Positions 43,566 to 49,783 of a stretch of DNA of 64,000 nt are shown here, one piece after another; positions within the stretch are counted from its first letter, which is position 1, and every line of letters begins with the position of its first letter. Below the pieces are notes generated by a model. That model ran no database searches, was not told the DNA's origin, and worked only from the letters and a program-made list of their open reading frames with translations. The translations under genes were made by a program, and so were the position numbers. The stretch comes from Sphingobacteriales bacterium 44-15 (GTDB lineage Bacteria; Bacteroidota; Bacteroidia; Chitinophagales; Chitinophagaceae). Where the stretch lies: the NCBI GenBank assembly GCA_001899685.1, contig MKWG01000006.1:80010-144009 (forward strand), read 5' to 3'.

Positions 43566-43712
43566 TCAGGTGATCTTTATTTTTTTACTGGAGCTGCTGC
43601 CGCCTTTTGCCACCTCCCCTCTGAGCAACATAGCAGGCTGCTTTTCACCATGAGCTTTTCGTCCGCTCTTGTGTTTGGCCGGAGTTTGCTTTTTCGCTTT
43701 TGCTTTCTGCAT
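43566..43712 (-). CDS. 48-residue basic protein downstream of the CHAT gene
   Basis: A small open frame from ATG at 43712, 23 bp after the stop of the TPR-CHAT gene and on the same strand. The first half is very basic (MQKAKAKKQTPAKHKSGRK), with no signal peptide. The second half has MLLRGEVAKGGSSSSKK. The same string, GEVAQGGSSSKKK, occurs in the subtilisin-like protease of this operon at residues 118-130, just before its catalytic domain. Chance similarity over 12 matched positions between two genes of one operon is unlikely. It may be a substrate, inhibitor or effector of one of the two proteases. Expression is not proven. Confidence 0.6.
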   Translation of the reverse strand: MQKAKAKKQTPAKHKSGRKAHGEKQPAMLLRGEVAKGGSSSSKKIKIT

Positions 43713-43735
43713 AATTGTAGATTTATTGTATAATA

Positions 43736-46552
43736 TCAAATGTAAGACCTATTTCTATAACGATATAAAAGAATAAATCCTCCTCCTGCCAATGCAATTA
43801 TGGCGATCCATGGCCATATCCCGGCTTTAGTGTGCTGATGGGTAAGATTTATAGGATCGCCCTTACCAACAAGTATCATATTTGCCCAGAAATAAGGCAG
43901 CAATTTTTCTTTTCCTCCCTTTTGCATAAGGAAGAGCTTTGCTTTCTGCAACGCATCATCCTTTCGCATTCCCGCAGCAAGATATTCATTCATCTTTTGA
44001 GATATAAGATAAATAGCTTCTTCATCCGCTTTCCATAATGTAGCAGATACAGCTGGGATCCCTGCTGCTGCAAAGCCTCTTGCCAGGCTATATATCCCCT
44101 CTCCTGTGGCATTACGTCCTACGTTCGTTTGGCAGGCGCTCAACATTACCAGTTGAGTTGCTGTATGATTGATCAGTTGCAATTCCTGCAGATGAATTAC
44201 AGAATCCTGCATATATAAAACAGGTTCCATGCTCGCAGTATCCGCCAGCGCATGAGAAAATACGTTCACTACACTATAACAGGACATCTCTTTTAAAAAA
44301 TTACTCCTGCTGGCCGCTGCATCCGTGAATAGAACAGCATCGTCATAGCCCTCCGCCGCGCTTTTAAGGGACTTTGCCGCATGCTTCAGGTCGGGTACCC
44401 TGAGACCCTTCCTGAATGAAACAGGTGCAAAACCGATAAAGCTGCCTGAAGAAGGATATACTTTAGAACCATGTAACAGGTAACCTGCTGAATAGGTATA
44501 GCTGAAGGTATAATGATATACTAGAAAATCCCTGCCATTACCGTCTGTTGTCAGTGCTTCAAAAGGAATGAGAAAGTTATCCGGGCAAAGGATCACCCTT
44601 CCGTAGGGAATATGCAGATCAGCAAAAAGGGTATGGTAAAGCTTATGCGAAAGCTCTGCAAAGCCGGCATAGCTGTTATTTAACGCCTGCTTGTTGCTGC
44701 AGTATTTCAAAAAACCAGCGACGTCATTCATATTAAAATTACTTCTGTCTACTTTAATCATGTGAGATGTCTCAGGGGCAATAGCAAGAATATATGCTGC
44801 TGTATCCTGTATAAAATAGTGCACAAAATAACTTTTTGTGCTCTTCAGCCATTCCTGCAGCACAGACATCTTTGGTACCACATCAGCATATTTGTATTGA
44901 TAATACAGCGGGTACTTCTGTTCAAGAGATTTTACGAAATATTCAAAATCAGATTTTACTTTCAAAAGCTCCATCTGCTGCATACCATATGCCCCTGAAT
45001 CAGGATCAGTTGAGCTGAGCTTTTGCCTGCAGGCTGCCATACGGCTAATAAAATCCTGCTCAGTTGCAGCCTCAGCATTGGGAAGATGCACCAGCGCATT
45101 CAGCTCATTGATCTTATCATTCAGCAAAACAGCCCTGCTTTTTTCCATAAAATAGAAAGCAAGGCTGTCATTATCCGCTAAATAGCAGGCCTCGATTGCA
45201 TTCACAAAAAAGCTTCTTGTACTGTTGCGCCAGTAAAGCTTACTTTGTTCGCCAATTTGCAGCCTCCTTGCCTGTGTAATAGCAGAATCCATCACCATTG
45301 CCGATTGCAGGCAGGCATCTATATATGCTTTATTATTATCGTGCTTATACATGTTAAGCAACCATTCTGTTCTGTTACCCAGTAGTACAAGGAGAAGATC
45401 AATGTTCCGGATGGAAGATAATCCCGCCAATGACTGGCTTTTAAAAAAGTCGTTGCTATGAATGCCATATACATTTAATGCCTCGGAATAATATTGTTTC
45501 GACCGGGTATAATTGCTTTGCCTGTCCCACTGAAACTCCAGTTCACCGAGATTAATATATGCCTTGCATAAACGTTCTGCATTACCGGATTTCCCGGCGT
45601 ATTTAATAGTATGCAAGTAGCACTGTTCAGCCTGGCTATATGCTTTCCGCTTTTGTAAATAATAATTGCCAAGATCGGTATAATCATCCGCTATCTGCTC
45701 ATTCTCGTTTGTTTTAAGCCGCATCCGTATAGACTGGTTAAAATAATCAACCGCTTTTGCCCAGTCCTCCTGAGCAGCATATAGTTGCGCTTTGATCTTT
45801 AAGGAAGTAGCCATTTCAAAATCCGAGTGAAGGCTTTTGGCATACTTTAACGCTGAATCCGCATCACTGAATGCATTTTCTTTGTTACCAAGATAAGCAT
45901 ACGACTGGGCTCTCCGGTTAAAGGCTGCCATCACTGATTCGTGCCTTGAAATACGCTCCGCTTCTGCAATAGCGAAAGAAGCTTCATCAATACATTTCTG
46001 AAAGTCGCCGTATTTAAAAAAAATATCAGACCTGATTATCCTGCTGCCGATAGCATAATCATCAACAACAGCATTTCGTTTTTTAATCAAAATCACACTG
46101 TCGTAAAAGGCCAGCGCTTTGTTGTTTTGATTGAGCGTTTTGTAAAAAGTTGCAAGATTGTAGTAACTGTTTACCAGGTATTGCGGGCAGGCATTCTTTT
46201 GCCCGCTGCTATTGATCCTGATAGATTCAAGAACATCATGTATAGCCCGGGGCGTAGCTACATAATCGTTTTTGAGATATTCCAATGCGGCTATACGATG
46301 AAGCAGCCTTGCATATACAGAGTCTTCAGGATAGTTGCAGTTAATCAATGCTTTCAGCAATCCATTTGCGTTTTGCAGCTTATCTGCAACAACAGACAGA
46401 TCATCTGCCTCAATCGCCATGATCCTGCGCCATGCTTCTGCAGAGGTGATACACTGGGCAAAAGCGCTACGGGTAAAAGCTGTTGCGGCAATGATAAAAA
46501 ACATCATCCTGACCAGGATACTATTACGTAGATCAAGCATCTGAGAGATCAA
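43736..46552 (-). CDS. TPR-CHAT protease, membrane anchored
   Basis: A 938-residue protein. An N-terminal signal (MMFFIIAATAFTRSAFAQ) is followed by at least six TPRs (residues 60-400) and a linker, then a CHAT domain (about 600-900) of the caspase-like clan. The catalytic dyad is His767 (VFSHALAD) and Cys807 (MLSACQTN), followed by the conserved GEGIYSLARGF and SATLWKADE. One transmembrane helix at about 911-930 and a short basic tail (RYRNRSYI) end the chain, so TPR and CHAT parts face the periplasm. It starts three bases after the stop of the subtilisin gene. TPRs probably sense a partner or signal that unlocks proteolysis. Confidence 0.88.
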   Translation of the reverse strand: MISQMLDLRNSILVRMMFFIIAATAFTRSAFAQCITSAEAWRRIMAIEADDLSVVADKLQNANGLLKALINCNYPEDSVYARLLHRIAALEYLKNDYVATPRAIHDVLESIRINSSGQKNACPQYLVNSYYNLATFYKTLNQNNKALAFYDSVILIKKRNAVVDDYAIGSRIIRSDIFFKYGDFQKCIDEASFAIAEAERISRHESVMAAFNRRAQSYAYLGNKENAFSDADSALKYAKSLHSDFEMATSLKIKAQLYAAQEDWAKAVDYFNQSIRMRLKTNENEQIADDYTDLGNYYLQKRKAYSQAEQCYLHTIKYAGKSGNAERLCKAYINLGELEFQWDRQSNYTRSKQYYSEALNVYGIHSNDFFKSQSLAGLSSIRNIDLLLVLLGNRTEWLLNMYKHDNNKAYIDACLQSAMVMDSAITQARRLQIGEQSKLYWRNSTRSFFVNAIEACYLADNDSLAFYFMEKSRAVLLNDKINELNALVHLPNAEAATEQDFISRMAACRQKLSSTDPDSGAYGMQQMELLKVKSDFEYFVKSLEQKYPLYYQYKYADVVPKMSVLQEWLKSTKSYFVHYFIQDTAAYILAIAPETSHMIKVDRSNFNMNDVAGFLKYCSNKQALNNSYAGFAELSHKLYHTLFADLHIPYGRVILCPDNFLIPFEALTTDGNGRDFLVYHYTFSYTYSAGYLLHGSKVYPSSGSFIGFAPVSFRKGLRVPDLKHAAKSLKSAAEGYDDAVLFTDAAASRSNFLKEMSCYSVVNVFSHALADTASMEPVLYMQDSVIHLQELQLINHTATQLVMLSACQTNVGRNATGEGIYSLARGFAAAGIPAVSATLWKADEEAIYLISQKMNEYLAAGMRKDDALQKAKLFLMQKGGKEKLLPYFWANMILVGKGDPINLTHQHTKAGIWPWIAIIALAGGGFILLYRYRNRSYI

Positions 46553-46555
46553 TTA

Positions 46556-48058
46556 TTACTTTCCCCGGTACGCCTGCTGCTTTCCGGCTCCCGTGTGATC
46601 TATTACTTTTCCTTCCTTTATTCTGGAACGTAACGCTCCAATATTAGTAAGAAAAGCCGGAGAAGCATTTGTTTTTAACAATGAAAAAATACTGTCTCTT
46701 ATTTCTTTTGTTATGGGCGTTCCCTGAAGCAGCGGATGGTATAAGTGATACCATGCTGCCATTTTACCCGTAAGAACAGGCGTGGCGAAGGATGAGCCTG
46801 ATACCGGAGGTAAGCTGCTGTTAACAGGATTGACAAATACAAAATTGCCTGCAGCATCAATATAGTCTGCGGCTACTCCTGCATCTACCACATTGGCCGA
46901 AAAGTTTTGTGTCGGGCTCACCAGGTCTTTATATACTGTTGTTACGGCAACTACATTAGGCAATACCGGTGATAATGATGCCGGGTAAAAATGAACACTG
47001 TCCAGGTTTCTTTTTTGCAGGCTGTCTGCAGGATCGTATTCCTGGTCTTCAATAGCATCGTCCTTATTCCCGGCAGCCGCCAGCAGCAGGATGTTGTTTT
47101 GAGTAAGATAATGTTCTATAAAAGCTTTCAGCATAACAGGGGAAGTAAATGCCTCTAATGCATTCCCGTTGCTGTCATATTTGTGCAATGGCTCGTAAAA
47201 GCCAAAGCTTGCATTGATGATATTCACCTTCCTGTTCTGTGCATAAGCAAAGCCGCAAAGTATAGTGAACAGATCGCCTGTGCCATCGCCGGCAAAAACT
47301 TTTACCGGTAAAATTTCGACACTATTATTTTTATAAAACCCGGCTTCATTAGTAATAAAGCTGGTTACGGTTGTGCCATGCCGCTGCGGGTTATCATCAG
47401 AAAAGTCATTTTTGTTCTCTATGAAGTTCCAGCCTGCATTTCCACCTGGTATACATGCGCTGTCGGCAGATTGATATAACGAAAAATAAGAGCTGACCAA
47501 AGCCGAGTCGAGTCCCGTATCAAAAACAGCTACTTTCACCGGAGCATCGCTATAAGTCACTTTTGGCAATTCAGCCCTTCTTCTTTCCGTTGCCAGAGTT
47601 TTATCCGGGAAAAATACCGGAAGGTTAGTGCCGAAATAAACAGGACCGCTTTCCCCTGTCACCGGGATCTTTTTTTTACTGCTGCTGCCACCCTGTGCCA
47701 CTTCACCCTGCATAAATACTTCAATGGCTTTGCCTTCCAGCAAAAAAAGTGTAGAATCGCAACTGCCACATACGAAGCTGATATTAATCTCTTCGCTTTT
47801 CCCTTTTTTTATAATGCTGTCGTATATCCACTGGCTGAACTGTACATCGGTGCTGCCCGGTTTCAGCCACACCATCAATTGCTTATATGGATCTTTTTTT
47901 TCAGGTTTTGATGGCTTGTAATAGACATGCCAGTCCGGGGGCCGGTCTGTTTGCTTATTGTGATTGCACATGCACCCGGGGAAAACGATCAAGAACAGAA
48001 AAGATGCAAAACAGATAAAAGACAATGGAACACAAACTTTACGAACAGAAACTTCCAT
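46556..48058 (-). CDS. Subtilisin-like S8 serine protease, secreted
   Basis: A 500-residue protein (ATG at 48058; an ATG at 48085 would add nine residues before the signal). A long hydrophobic signal ends near VFPGCMCN, a weak lipobox. The peptidase S8 domain has the whole triad: Asp180 (AVFDTGLD), His227 (QRHGTTV), Ser423 (GSSFATP), with oxyanion Asn331 (AAAGN). Residues 30-115 would be a pro- or regulatory domain, and the motif GEVAQGGSSSKKK (118-130) lies between this and the catalytic domain, a likely processing site. It is followed by the CHAT gene after three bases. A gap of 145 bp with a hairpin repeat separates it from the TPR gene upstream. Confidence 0.88.
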   Translation of the reverse strand: MEVSVRKVCVPLSFICFASFLFLIVFPGCMCNHNKQTDRPPDWHVYYKPSKPEKKDPYKQLMVWLKPGSTDVQFSQWIYDSIIKKGKSEEINISFVCGSCDSTLFLLEGKAIEVFMQGEVAQGGSSSKKKIPVTGESGPVYFGTNLPVFFPDKTLATERRRAELPKVTYSDAPVKVAVFDTGLDSALVSSYFSLYQSADSACIPGGNAGWNFIENKNDFSDDNPQRHGTTVTSFITNEAGFYKNNSVEILPVKVFAGDGTGDLFTILCGFAYAQNRKVNIINASFGFYEPLHKYDSNGNALEAFTSPVMLKAFIEHYLTQNNILLLAAAGNKDDAIEDQEYDPADSLQKRNLDSVHFYPASLSPVLPNVVAVTTVYKDLVSPTQNFSANVVDAGVAADYIDAAGNFVFVNPVNSSLPPVSGSSFATPVLTGKMAAWYHLYHPLLQGTPITKEIRDSIFSLLKTNASPAFLTNIGALRSRIKEGKVIDHTGAGKQQAYRGK

Positions 48059-48130
48059 GCTGATATGATATTTAGAATAAGCCAAAACCGGTTACCCGGG
48101 GGTGTGAATAACATCCTGGGCTATGTCAAA

Positions 48131-48193
48131 CGTGAAATGTGAGACGTGAAATGTGAGATATTCTTTCACTTTTATCTTCTCACTTTTCACGAC
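48131..48193. repeat. GTGAAAnGTGAGA hairpin repeat, copy 2
   Basis: Two tandem CGTGAAATGTGAGA units followed, after a loop, by TCTCACTTTTCACG, which pairs with 12 of 13 bases. It is the inverted relative of the copy at 24139-24195. It lies between the TPR gene and the subtilisin gene of the sigma operon, where it could terminate, attenuate or process the transcript. Confidence 0.65.
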
Positions 48194-48203
48194 TTTAGGA
48201 CTG

Positions 48204-48971
48204 CTACCAGCTTTTCAGCCATTGCTCGGCCGCCGTGCTTCCCTCCTGCTTATCCTCCACTATCTCCTCTAAGATTGCTTTTGCTGCGGCTTTATCTCCT
48301 GTACTATTTCGCTGCAGCAATGTAACAGCTTTCAAAAAGGGTCCGGCATTGCTGAATAGCTCTTTCTTTGCAGCGAGGTCATCAAATTTCTCAAGGGCTT
48401 TATCATATTCTTTAGTAACGAGATATACTGTACCCACGTACCTGAGCGCATCACTGTTATCGGGATGAGTGGCGTAAACAGCTTCAAACAATTGAAGCGC
48501 CTTTTCATATTCTTTATTATTATACGCCGCTATGCCTTGCTGGAGACTGTCTTTGGCGCCATCCATTGTTTGGCTGAGGTGCATAAGCTCTTGCTTTACA
48601 TATTGATCTGCAAGCCGGGTTGGAGTATTTCTGTTACTGAAAAAAGCAAAATATGCAACGAGTATCAATATCAGGCCTGCAGCCACAGCCATCATCCTTC
48701 TGGGGAAACTGTTTTTTTGCCGCATGGGGATTACAGGGGCGGATGGCTCCTTAAAATACTTCCCGTTAAGCTGGCTTAATGTATTTTTCAGCGCTGCTTC
48801 CCGATCACTGTATTTTTCTGCATTATACATTTCAGTGTTGATAGTGCCGTATAAGTTGAACAACTGCTGTAACTCATTATTTTCTGCAAGTTCTTTTTCA
48901 AAGCGGCTTTTTTCTTCAGCCGTCATGCTTCCATTAAGGTAACTCTCAATCTTTTCAAAGTTGTCATTCAT
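48204..48971 (-). CDS. Membrane TPR protein in anti-sigma factor position
   Basis: A 255-residue protein. The first 35 residues (FEKIESYLNGSMTAEEKSRFEKELAENNELQ) match the N-terminal pattern of anti-sigma-factor-like proteins of this phylum. A single membrane helix follows at about 92-112 (MMAVAAGLILILVAYFAFF), then a periplasmic part with two or three TPRs (KDSLQQGIAAYNNKEYEKALQLFEAVYATHPDN and the next). No zinc-binding HxxxCxxC is present. It starts four bases after the stop of the ECF sigma gene. Likely role: hold the sigma factor at the membrane until a periplasmic cue reaches the TPRs. Confidence 0.8.
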   Translation of the reverse strand: MNDNFEKIESYLNGSMTAEEKSRFEKELAENNELQQLFNLYGTINTEMYNAEKYSDREAALKNTLSQLNGKYFKEPSAPVIPMRQKNSFPRRMMAVAAGLILILVAYFAFFSNRNTPTRLADQYVKQELMHLSQTMDGAKDSLQQGIAAYNNKEYEKALQLFEAVYATHPDNSDALRYVGTVYLVTKEYDKALEKFDDLAAKKELFSNAGPFLKAVTLLQRNSTGDKAAAKAILEEIVEDKQEGSTAAEQWLKSW

Positions 48972-48975
48972 AAGA

Positions 48976-49551
48976 TCACCATTTCAACGAGTTAAATTTG
49001 GGAGACTGCTTTACAAGTGTAATCAATTTTGCCATGCATTCAGATTTCTTTTTCCGCGCATAAGCATAGCTAACCTTAAGCTTTTTTGCTACTTCGTCCA
49101 TTGATAAGCCACTCCAGCTTAATTTCAACAAATTTTTGCAACTCTCTCCCATCTCAGACAGTTTTTCAGCAAGCAGGGCGCTTCGCTCCTGGTGCATTAC
49201 ACAATCTTCTGCCAGCCTGAAGCTGTCTTCTCCGATATAGTTAAATCCTTCAGTGTCGGTATTTGTTACCTTTTGAGTTTTCCTTTTATTCAGCACATTC
49301 AGCCACTTATTCTTACAAATAAGGTAAAGGAATGCTTCCATCGGGCAGGTGAGCTCAAAATCGCCTGTTTTGGCTTTGTTATATATAGACATCAATGCAT
49401 CCTGGAAAATATCTGCGGCGTCTGTTTCCGTGCCGCTGTTCTGCAGGATCATCCATTTTATTCTGGCTGAAAATTTTTCGTAAAGCTCCTCCAACACCAA
49501 AGGATCGTTGTTTAATAAAGCCTCAACATATTTCTGATCAGGATGCTGCAT
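48976..49551 (-). CDS. ECF-type RNA polymerase sigma-70 factor
   Basis: A 191-residue ECF sigma factor. Region 2 lies at residues 20-90 (LEELYEKFSARIKWMI, DAADIFQDALMSIYNKA, CKNKWLNVLNKR), region 4 at 130-180 (LSWSGLSMDEVAKKLKVSYAYARKKKSECMAKL) with the helix-turn-helix. A long linker between them holds the segment DTEGFNYIGEDSF. It is the first gene of the operon with the membrane TPR protein, and upstream are three repeats of the TACAGG ... TCATRT kind. It probably drives its own operon, including both proteases. Confidence 0.92.
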   Translation of the reverse strand: MQHPDQKYVEALLNNDPLVLEELYEKFSARIKWMILQNSGTETDAADIFQDALMSIYNKAKTGDFELTCPMEAFLYLICKNKWLNVLNKRKTQKVTNTDTEGFNYIGEDSFRLAEDCVMHQERSALLAEKLSEMGESCKNLLKLSWSGLSMDEVAKKLKVSYAYARKKKSECMAKLITLVKQSPKFNSLKW

Positions 49552-49783
49552 GACAGATGCAAAAAATTAATTCTGAAAAAAACTGTTTACAGGGGTATCA
49601 TGTTTCAGAGAAGACGGATATATCGCTATGATGAAATTCTAAAACAAAAAAAGCCAAAATTTGTGATAATCAGGAAATTATTTACAGGTTTTCATATATG
49701 ACTACAGGGTTCTCATGTATACCATTCCGTGATGATACAGCAGTGAGTCGGGTACATTGTTGCTATCAGCGGAAAATTAAACT

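Follow-up and report, generated by a model that had tools for sequence, protein, structure and literature searches.

What might two proteases, a subtilase of family S8 and a caspase-like CHAT enzyme, be doing in one operon with an extracytoplasmic function (ECF) sigma factor? The question is raised by a locus of Sphingobacteriales bacterium 44-15 (assembly GCA_001899685.1, contig MKWG01000006.1), of which a stretch of 64,000 nucleotides, positions 80,010 to 144,009 of the forward strand, was analysed as a whole and is called here the window. A preliminary description of this DNA had reported five same-strand genes, and all of them were located on the minus strand, running from 49551 to 43566 in the order: ECF sigma factor, tetratricopeptide repeat (TPR) protein, S8 subtilase, TPR-CHAT protease and a basic protein of 48 residues. 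That description did not mention that a segment of the S8 protein recurs in the small protein. The reading put forward here, tentatively and with rather less than even confidence, is that the operon constitutes a membrane-bound protease relay controlling the ECF sigma factor, in which a peptide loop would be the trigger read by the CHAT protease. The genes and the two copies of the peptide are as follows (below, W is the locus of the window, L-numbers are loci of relatives and G-numbers are genomes of the same genus):

48976..49551, minus strand: ECF sigma factor, 191 residues (TIGR02937, E 2.5e-17, 63 bits, cut-off 42.9).
48204..48971, minus strand: anti-sigma-like protein, 255 residues, with an N-terminal domain, one transmembrane helix and TPR (TPR_16 above cut-off).
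46556..48058 (ATG start taken), minus strand: putative membrane-tethered subtilase (S8) with prodomain (Peptidase_S8, PF00082, E 1e-17).
47657..47707, minus strand: prodomain loop GEVAQGGSSSKKKIPVT of the subtilase, the shared peptide (residues 118-134 from the ATG), in the a2-b4 loop.
43736..46552, minus strand: TPR-CHAT protease with an N-terminal signal-like segment and a C-terminal transmembrane helix (CHAT, PF12770, 126 bits, cut-off 24).
43566..43712, minus strand: lysine-rich protein of 48 residues, with homologues in synteny directly after CHAT and a third-position excess.
43569..43619, minus strand: second copy of the peptide, GEVAKGGSSSSKKIKIT, within the small protein; it agrees with the S8 loop at 13 of 17 residues.

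The C-terminus of the small protein is RGEVAKGGSSSSKKIKIT, and the motif which it has in common with the S8 loop is VAxGGSSSxKK; the S8 peptide, MQGEVAQGGSSSKKKIPVTG, sits between the first domain and the catalytic domain. When the S8 loop of the window was used as a query, the small ORF (open reading frame) ranked first among 588 ORFs of at least 30 residues, S8 being left out, with a score of 69 versus 33 for the next one. It also ranked first, among 100-144 ORFs, in five other loci with the small gene, G606 being outside this ranking. In a scan of 90-residue segments over 43 loci, the pairs of L023 (71), W (69), L046 (60) and L018 (58) stood out. The small gene lies directly behind the CHAT gene in seven cases (W, L017, L018, L023, L024, L168 and G606), that is, in six of the eleven S8-positive genomes of the genus plus one metagenome-assembled genome, and it overlaps the end of the CHAT gene in L017, L168 and G606. 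A profile of six small proteins, run over 12 genomes of the genus, gave 16 matches with E below 0.5; ten of these were S8 loops and the other six were small genes, of which the profile itself contained five. The eleventh S8 loop appeared at E 0.87, amid seven unrelated matches with E values of 0.8-1.9. The small protein contains 14 Lys plus Arg and 2 Asp plus Glu residues, and gave no match with Pfam. The gene looks coding, because the differences between W and L023 fall as 8/8/26 on the three codon positions of 46 codons. When the S8-loop segments of other clades were searched against their own genomes, S8 itself was recovered together with weak matches of E 0.18 or worse; negative searches of this kind are weak, because one of them missed existing small genes (G028/L018 and L024).

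Some other short frames are recorded here as side observations. In Larkinella rosea (L046, 4991-4773, minus strand), a small ORF with a lipobox-like LLSC shares the loop peptide with the S8 protein of Larkinella (GRELADGTRPSGGVS), as VDGRELADGTRPSGGVS versus ISGKEMASNTRPSGGVEG; it has no ATG start and its best match is the S8 protein of another Larkinella (L047). This ORF, outside the seven cases counted, is perhaps a gene in decay, or else a second case of independent origin. Behind the CHAT gene of L027 there is a frame that contains a GG. A lipoprotein-like ORF of 47 residues with a Gly/Ser-rich tail lies behind CHAT in L023 (10695-10835) and L164 (8117-8257), with 68% mutual identity, and in the other loci examined it gave matches at E 0.65 or worse only.

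The codons of the two copies of the peptide were compared in five of the seven pairs (L168 and G606 were left out). The numbers of same, synonymous and non-synonymous codons between the S8 and the small gene were 6/7/4 in W, 7/6/4 in L023, 5/4/7 in L017, 1/8/6 in L018 and 2/6/8 in L024. Since identical residues are often encoded by different codons, recent DNA copying is not the cause of the likeness, which is kept at the protein level. Independent drift from one ancestor would leave the own pairs no better than swapped pairs. The scores of the six own pairs summed 342, versus a mean of 269.5, and 4 of the 720 re-pairings were as good; when G606 was added, the seven own pairs summed 373 versus 301.7, and 9 of 5040 re-pairings reached the observed sum. 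The corresponding figures were 9 of 720 without L018 and 2 of 120 without two close relatives. In L018 both copies have changed in concert (AKGGNG..DPE), with an own score of 58 and the next at 34, while in L168 the concerted change (GGST.KT) is less clear (58 and 55). These comparisons of sequences suggest that the peptide of the small protein co-varies, in part, with the subtilase of its own genome. Because of the concerted change and of the better own pairs, the simplest cause would be one third party reading both copies. The CHAT protease is the candidate reader, because the small gene is tied to CHAT and because there is a precedent: according to PMC10028731, Csx29, itself a TPR-CHAT protease, cleaves Csx30, the inhibitor of an ECF sigma factor, within a small flexible loop, and no single Csx30 residue is essential for this cleavage.

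Concerning the place of the peptide within the subtilase, an AlphaFold2 model was obtained with 41 sequences (mean predicted local distance difference test, pLDDT, 84.9). In this prediction, an I9-type b-a-b-b-a-b order (b1 61-65, a1 71-86, b2 92-96, b3 104-108, a2 110-116, b4 140-144) precedes the catalytic domain, and residues 121-128 (AQGGSSSK) form one of the three stretches of the model with pLDDT below 50. Among 12 S8 proteins (the genus and L023), the loop had a mean conservation of 0.74, next to 0.73 in the prodomain core, and the linker that leads to the catalytic domain had one of 0.35. A fast-evolving loop was rejected, as inside the genus its conservation equals that of the core. 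A loop that is disordered yet conserved bears the mark of a linear motif, and the model points to the prodomain loop as a recognition motif. That the peptide could be the primary autoprocessing site was set aside on account of its position before b4 of the prodomain. A Pfam I9 match was found neither in the S8 protein of the window (where only Peptidase_S8 was found, with a threshold of E 0.1) nor in four relatives (threshold E 1). By Foldseek, the S8 model aligned at near full length, over 496-502 columns, with SUB1 (4tr2 and 8pol; PvSUB1 and Pf SUB1) and EpiP (3t41), and over 465-468 columns with ProN-Tk-SP (3afg) and pro-subtilisin E (3whi); TM-scores were about 0.5, the top match being SUB1 (0.51). 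We take these entries to include the prodomains, in part from their titles. The S8 sequence profile, for its part, matched the SUB1 entry 8pol over profile positions 74-444.

In other families the place of the loop is kept with an altered sequence, Gly/Ser-rich in Chitinophaga and Pro-containing in Dyadobacter; in Spirosoma and Fibrisoma a Pro-rich unit occurs there twice. Two further features of the prodomain were observed. At the position of the loop, L048 and L049 have a tandem proline-rich repeat (YSPGTDTPPPTVVSSS and YSPDTEQPPPPPP). A CxxCD motif (C106, C109 and D110, counted from a TTG start) is invariant in seven of seven proteins and could be a disulfide or a redox switch.

The recurrence of the operon in relatives depended on how it was sought. 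With the S8 protein of the window alone as the query, at E 1e-20, 7 of 195 genomes of the family were matched. A lack of conservation, as suggested by a single S8 query at the same threshold (own genome only, 1 of 395 phylum-wide), was rejected, since an alignment-based scan reached far more: the apparent lack was due to the sensitivity of a single query. An alignment of seven S8 proteins, used to scan genome contigs, gave at least 163 relatives, of which the best 80 loci were examined; gene order was no part of the search criterion. In 35 of these 80 the S8 score was at least 100 bits and, after the removal of four duplicates, 31 loci remained, to which the following counts refer. CHAT was directly downstream of S8 in 30 (L030, whose contig has a length of 4,971 bases, is the one locus with no CHAT downstream), and upstream of S8 there was a TPR gene in 30 and a sigma gene in 29; both upstream genes are missing in L051, and the contig of L056 starts just before the TPR gene. 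The preliminary description had staked its idea beforehand on the conservation of gene order, and the idea survived, since the first four genes (sigma, TPR, S8 and CHAT) are all present in 28 of the 31 loci. Among the 45 of the best 80 loci with S8 below 100 bits, four had CHAT; one of the low-scoring loci, L096, has TPR and sigma matches and no CHAT match. The loci belong to Chitinophagaceae, Pedobacter, Mucilaginibacter, Dyadobacter, Larkinella, Spirosoma and Fibrisoma and, more remotely, Neolewinella. Inside the genus, S8 was found in 11 of 12 genomes, the twelfth (G609) being 88% complete. The recurrence of the four-gene order in other Bacteroidota is more than chance. As side observations, the TPR anti-sigma-like gene is doubled in Larkinella (L044-L047 and L050), and in L044, L045 and L050 an ORF that reads like a response regulator, a family assigned by reading only, lies on the opposite strand between the TPR copies.

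The families of the four large proteins were confirmed with Pfam and NCBIfam, the Sigma70_r2 match of the sigma factor being slightly above the Pfam cut-off. The preliminary description was right about the intact His767 and Cys807 of CHAT, which all 39 aligned rows share, and about the full Asp/His/Ser triad of S8, D189/H236/S432 when counted from the TTG (D180/H227/S423 from the ATG), which, like the oxyanion Asn, is the same in all 41 aligned rows. The S8 ORF is open from a TTG at 48085 and has an internal ATG at 48058; its catalytic residues are those which we presume from their motifs. The alignments comprised 39 of the 41 CHAT proteins at hand (L056 and L062 were dropped) and 41 of the 43 S8 proteins (L062 and L086 were dropped), the dropped rows being fragments or having doubtful starts, and both cover the loci collected before the later ones of the genus. 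Against solved structures, the sequence of the CHAT domain found no relative, only two matches (E 0.79 and 1.2) unrelated by name.

As for topology, hydropathy gave a transmembrane segment in 45 of 45 TPR proteins; 43 of 45 CHAT proteins had one at the C-terminus, as described earlier for the protein of the window, and 39 of 45 had an N-terminal hydrophobic segment. The AlphaFold2 model of CHAT (mean pLDDT 88.9) has the corresponding helices at 2-30 and 912-937. Among the S8 ORFs, with uncurated starts, an N-terminal hydrophobic segment was present in 34 of 48 and a lipobox-like motif in 21 of 48. Both proteases are predicted to be periplasmic, because of these hydropathy segments and the usual topology rules, which supports what had been proposed for them. 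The TPR protein was also found as described, with one pass (residues 95-111 by hydropathy; alignment of 30 rows), a TPR_16 match and its place next to the sigma factor. Its residues 9-126 matched an NCBIfam anti-sigma model at E 1.6e-4, far under the cut-off of the model. Position, topology and this sub-threshold match are the basis for labelling it a putative anti-sigma factor, with the orientation and sigma binding that such a role would imply.

With the gene order kept and the catalytic residues invariant in the aligned rows, a relay can be considered, which may work as follows. In the resting cell, the sigma factor would be kept at the membrane by the TPR protein. The subtilase would exist as a zymogen, with a bait loop (A-x-GG, S/G-rich and lysine-flanked) exposed on its I9-like prodomain. 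When switched on via its TPRs, CHAT would recognise this loop and cut in it or beside it, and the inhibition by the prodomain would be destroyed. The freed subtilase would then attack the periplasmic side of the TPR anti-sigma protein, a step suggested by gene order and by the RseA/RsiW paradigm, and the sigma factor would be released. The small protein, which bears the peptide too, would be read by CHAT as well, and its most likely role would be that of a competitor substrate which sets the threshold or ends the signal. The preliminary description had proposed that one protease may activate the other; to this a candidate site is now added, the S8 prodomain loop common to the small protein, which we infer to be recognised, and probably cut, by CHAT.

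Several observations weigh against this relay. What speaks for the cutting of the anti-sigma protein by the subtilase is position only. No signal peptide can be recognised in the small protein, which would therefore be cytoplasmic, so that, CHAT and S8 being predicted periplasmic, the two peptide copies would not meet without an extra step; the small protein could act only when compartments mix, or could reach the periplasm by a route invisible in the sequence. In the scan of 43 loci mentioned above, the pairs of L017 and L024 (43) were not above chance matches elsewhere (51 and 46). Four of the seven own pairs (W, L017, L024 and G606) score higher with the S8 protein of another genome, and the own-pair test was made with few, related genomes. 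The small gene was not found in five of the eleven S8-positive genomes of the genus (G602, G603, G607, G608 and G610), nor by similarity in other families, one doubtful case apart, and therefore it is not essential. Finally, the GG of the loop can be lost outside the genus (Dyadobacter, Pedobacter and Spirosoma) and in L024.

The rival explanation that survives best, although unlikely, is that the shared peptide is a binding ligand rather than a cleavage site: the loop would lie in a TPR groove, either that of CHAT or that of the anti-sigma protein, and the small protein would displace it, much as peptide pheromones act in TPR receptors. The shared stretch, 15-17 residues as compared, is long for a protease site, and the CHAT profile, in its TPR half, resembles many TPR structures, including Rap phosphatases and NprR. 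This similarity is generic, however, such matches being common to TPR proteins at large, and among known peptide-binding TPRs none of this kind was identified; moreover, the zymogen loop is short and near the prodomain core.

Subtilase zymogens process their own prodomains, and it is thus conceivable, but rather unlikely, that the role of reader falls to the subtilase itself. In that case it would process itself at the loop as a secondary site, with the small protein as its substrate or competitive inhibitor, and CHAT would act elsewhere in the path. The match of the small protein reaches both sides of the GG, as this would allow, and SUB1 is described in the consulted part of PMC10128010 as processing its own prodomain. 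Primary autoprocessing, however, is expected at the end of the prodomain, which here is the poorly conserved linker (0.35) and not the a2-b4 loop, and it is CHAT that the small gene follows and, in the three loci named above, overlaps.

It seems less likely still that the operon is a cell-death or anti-phage module, in which activation of the subtilase by CHAT would bring about the death of the infected cell and the sigma factor would act as an amplifier. CHAT and caspase-like proteases do serve in such systems. Two loci can be counted in favour of it. In L019 (7042-14011; the same as L028, Chitinophagaceae bacterium DXS), an S8-CHAT pair without sigma and TPR genes is followed by genes matching TssD (Hcp) and a type VI secretion system (T6SS)/phage baseplate hub; in L193 (3815-10358; Emticicia oligotrophica plasmid pEMTOL03), a TPR-CHAT lies near an opposite-strand sigma factor and a TPR protein, in a stretch with no annotated subtilase. 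However, the PADLOC defence models at E 0.01 gave no match for the sigma factor, S8 or CHAT, and nothing beyond a weak match of the TPR protein to the Csx1 model (E 8e-4), so that a filing as anti-phage was rejected. Besides, the operon of the window stands between housekeeping genes, and the presence of S8 in 11 of 12 genomes of the genus is the pattern of a resident stress system.

An arrangement that would turn the separation of compartments to use is improbable to a marked degree, taken as a whole: the small protein would stay in the cytoplasm and its reader, CHAT or the subtilase, in the periplasm, a breach of the inner membrane (by phage, toxin or T6SS) would fire the relay, and the copy in the S8 prodomain would make the reader recognise the 'self' peptide of its own strain. 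If this were so, bacteria would have a damage-signal system whose alarm peptide is genetically encoded and co-varies with its sensor. The least probable explanation, that the small gene is a relic, an old fragment of the S8 gene with no role in the pathway, could appeal to a peptide that is short and partly low in complexity, to the five genomes of eleven without the gene and to the four own pairs of seven that are not the best, but it is opposed by the third-position excess (8/8/26), by the residues kept despite changed codons and by the concerted change in L018 and, less clearly, L168.

Returning to the relay read by CHAT, known systems resemble it in parts. The proteases acting on RseA (DegS) and on RsiW belong to other families than those of this operon. 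The likeness to these systems is that a membrane anti-sigma factor is cut by a protease and the sigma factor is released (PMC10028731, in the part consulted). In the type III-E CRISPR system (Csx29-Csx30-CASP-sigma, Craspase), according to the consulted passages of the same source, a TPR-CHAT is encoded together with an ECF sigma factor, which is released from its inhibitor by the cut in a flexible loop; unlike the present operon, Craspase is RNA-triggered by Cas7-11, its substrate is the inhibitor Csx30 and those passages mention no subtilase. With regard to Cas7-11 and Csx30/Csx31, no cas gene was present among the six flanking genes scanned, a scan that did not include a Cas7-11 profile search of the window or the genome. 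In Plasmodium, the consulted part of PMC10128010 describes the activation of the subtilase SUB1 by plasmepsin X, that is, an inhibitory propiece destroyed by a second, unrelated protease; the differences are that this activator is an aspartic protease and that there is neither a sigma factor nor a second bait-bearing protein. A similar neighbourhood is that of ECF54 in Actinobacteria, for which PMC8999054, in the part consulted, describes an ECF sigma factor with a subtilase and CHAT nearby and proposes proteolytic control; in that part it is described without an anti-sigma factor and with a carboxypeptidase, and a bait peptide and a small protein are not mentioned. In the Bacteroidota operon, by comparison, a conserved one-pass TPR protein adjoins the sigma factor, the anti-sigma-like TPR gene being present in 30 of the 31 loci. 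The sigma/subtilase/CHAT neighbourhoods of ECF54 were thus already known, while the Bacteroidota operon and the shared peptide are apparently new: in the open-licence literature of PubMed Central, a set that leaves out most subscription papers, no paper was found on either.

Upstream of the operon there is one more feature:

49592..49622, minus strand: conserved element TATATCCG-N14-TGATACCCC, candidate promoter or operator.

By-eye counts in 12 aligned loci gave TATATCCG in 8 and TACCCC in 9, neither half of the element being present in L018 and L167. A pattern built from the element of the window had one match in the window and none in 100 shuffles, and it occurs a single time in the whole genome, which neither proves nor excludes autoregulation. 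The operon is flanked on one side by genes for an iron-dependent repressor and an Nramp/Usp transporter, and on the other side by genes for FAA hydrolase, peptidyl-tRNA hydrolase, L25 and PRPP synthetase. The genome encodes four CHAT proteins, and around the other three no subtilase-sigma set was seen in the ORF listing, inspected by eye with no profile search. One of these paralogous CHAT genes (L007, 6088-9895, contig C2) is beside that of a lipoprotein-like protein of 306 residues, with no Pfam match at E 0.1.

If the proposed relay is true, the operon would be a bacterial counterpart of a protease activation cascade, in which a caspase-like enzyme licenses a subtilase by cutting its prodomain and the outcome is wired to transcription. 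In addition, the shared peptide offers a guess, defined at the level of sequence, at the recognition target of a periplasmic TPR-CHAT protease, and it makes the question testable.

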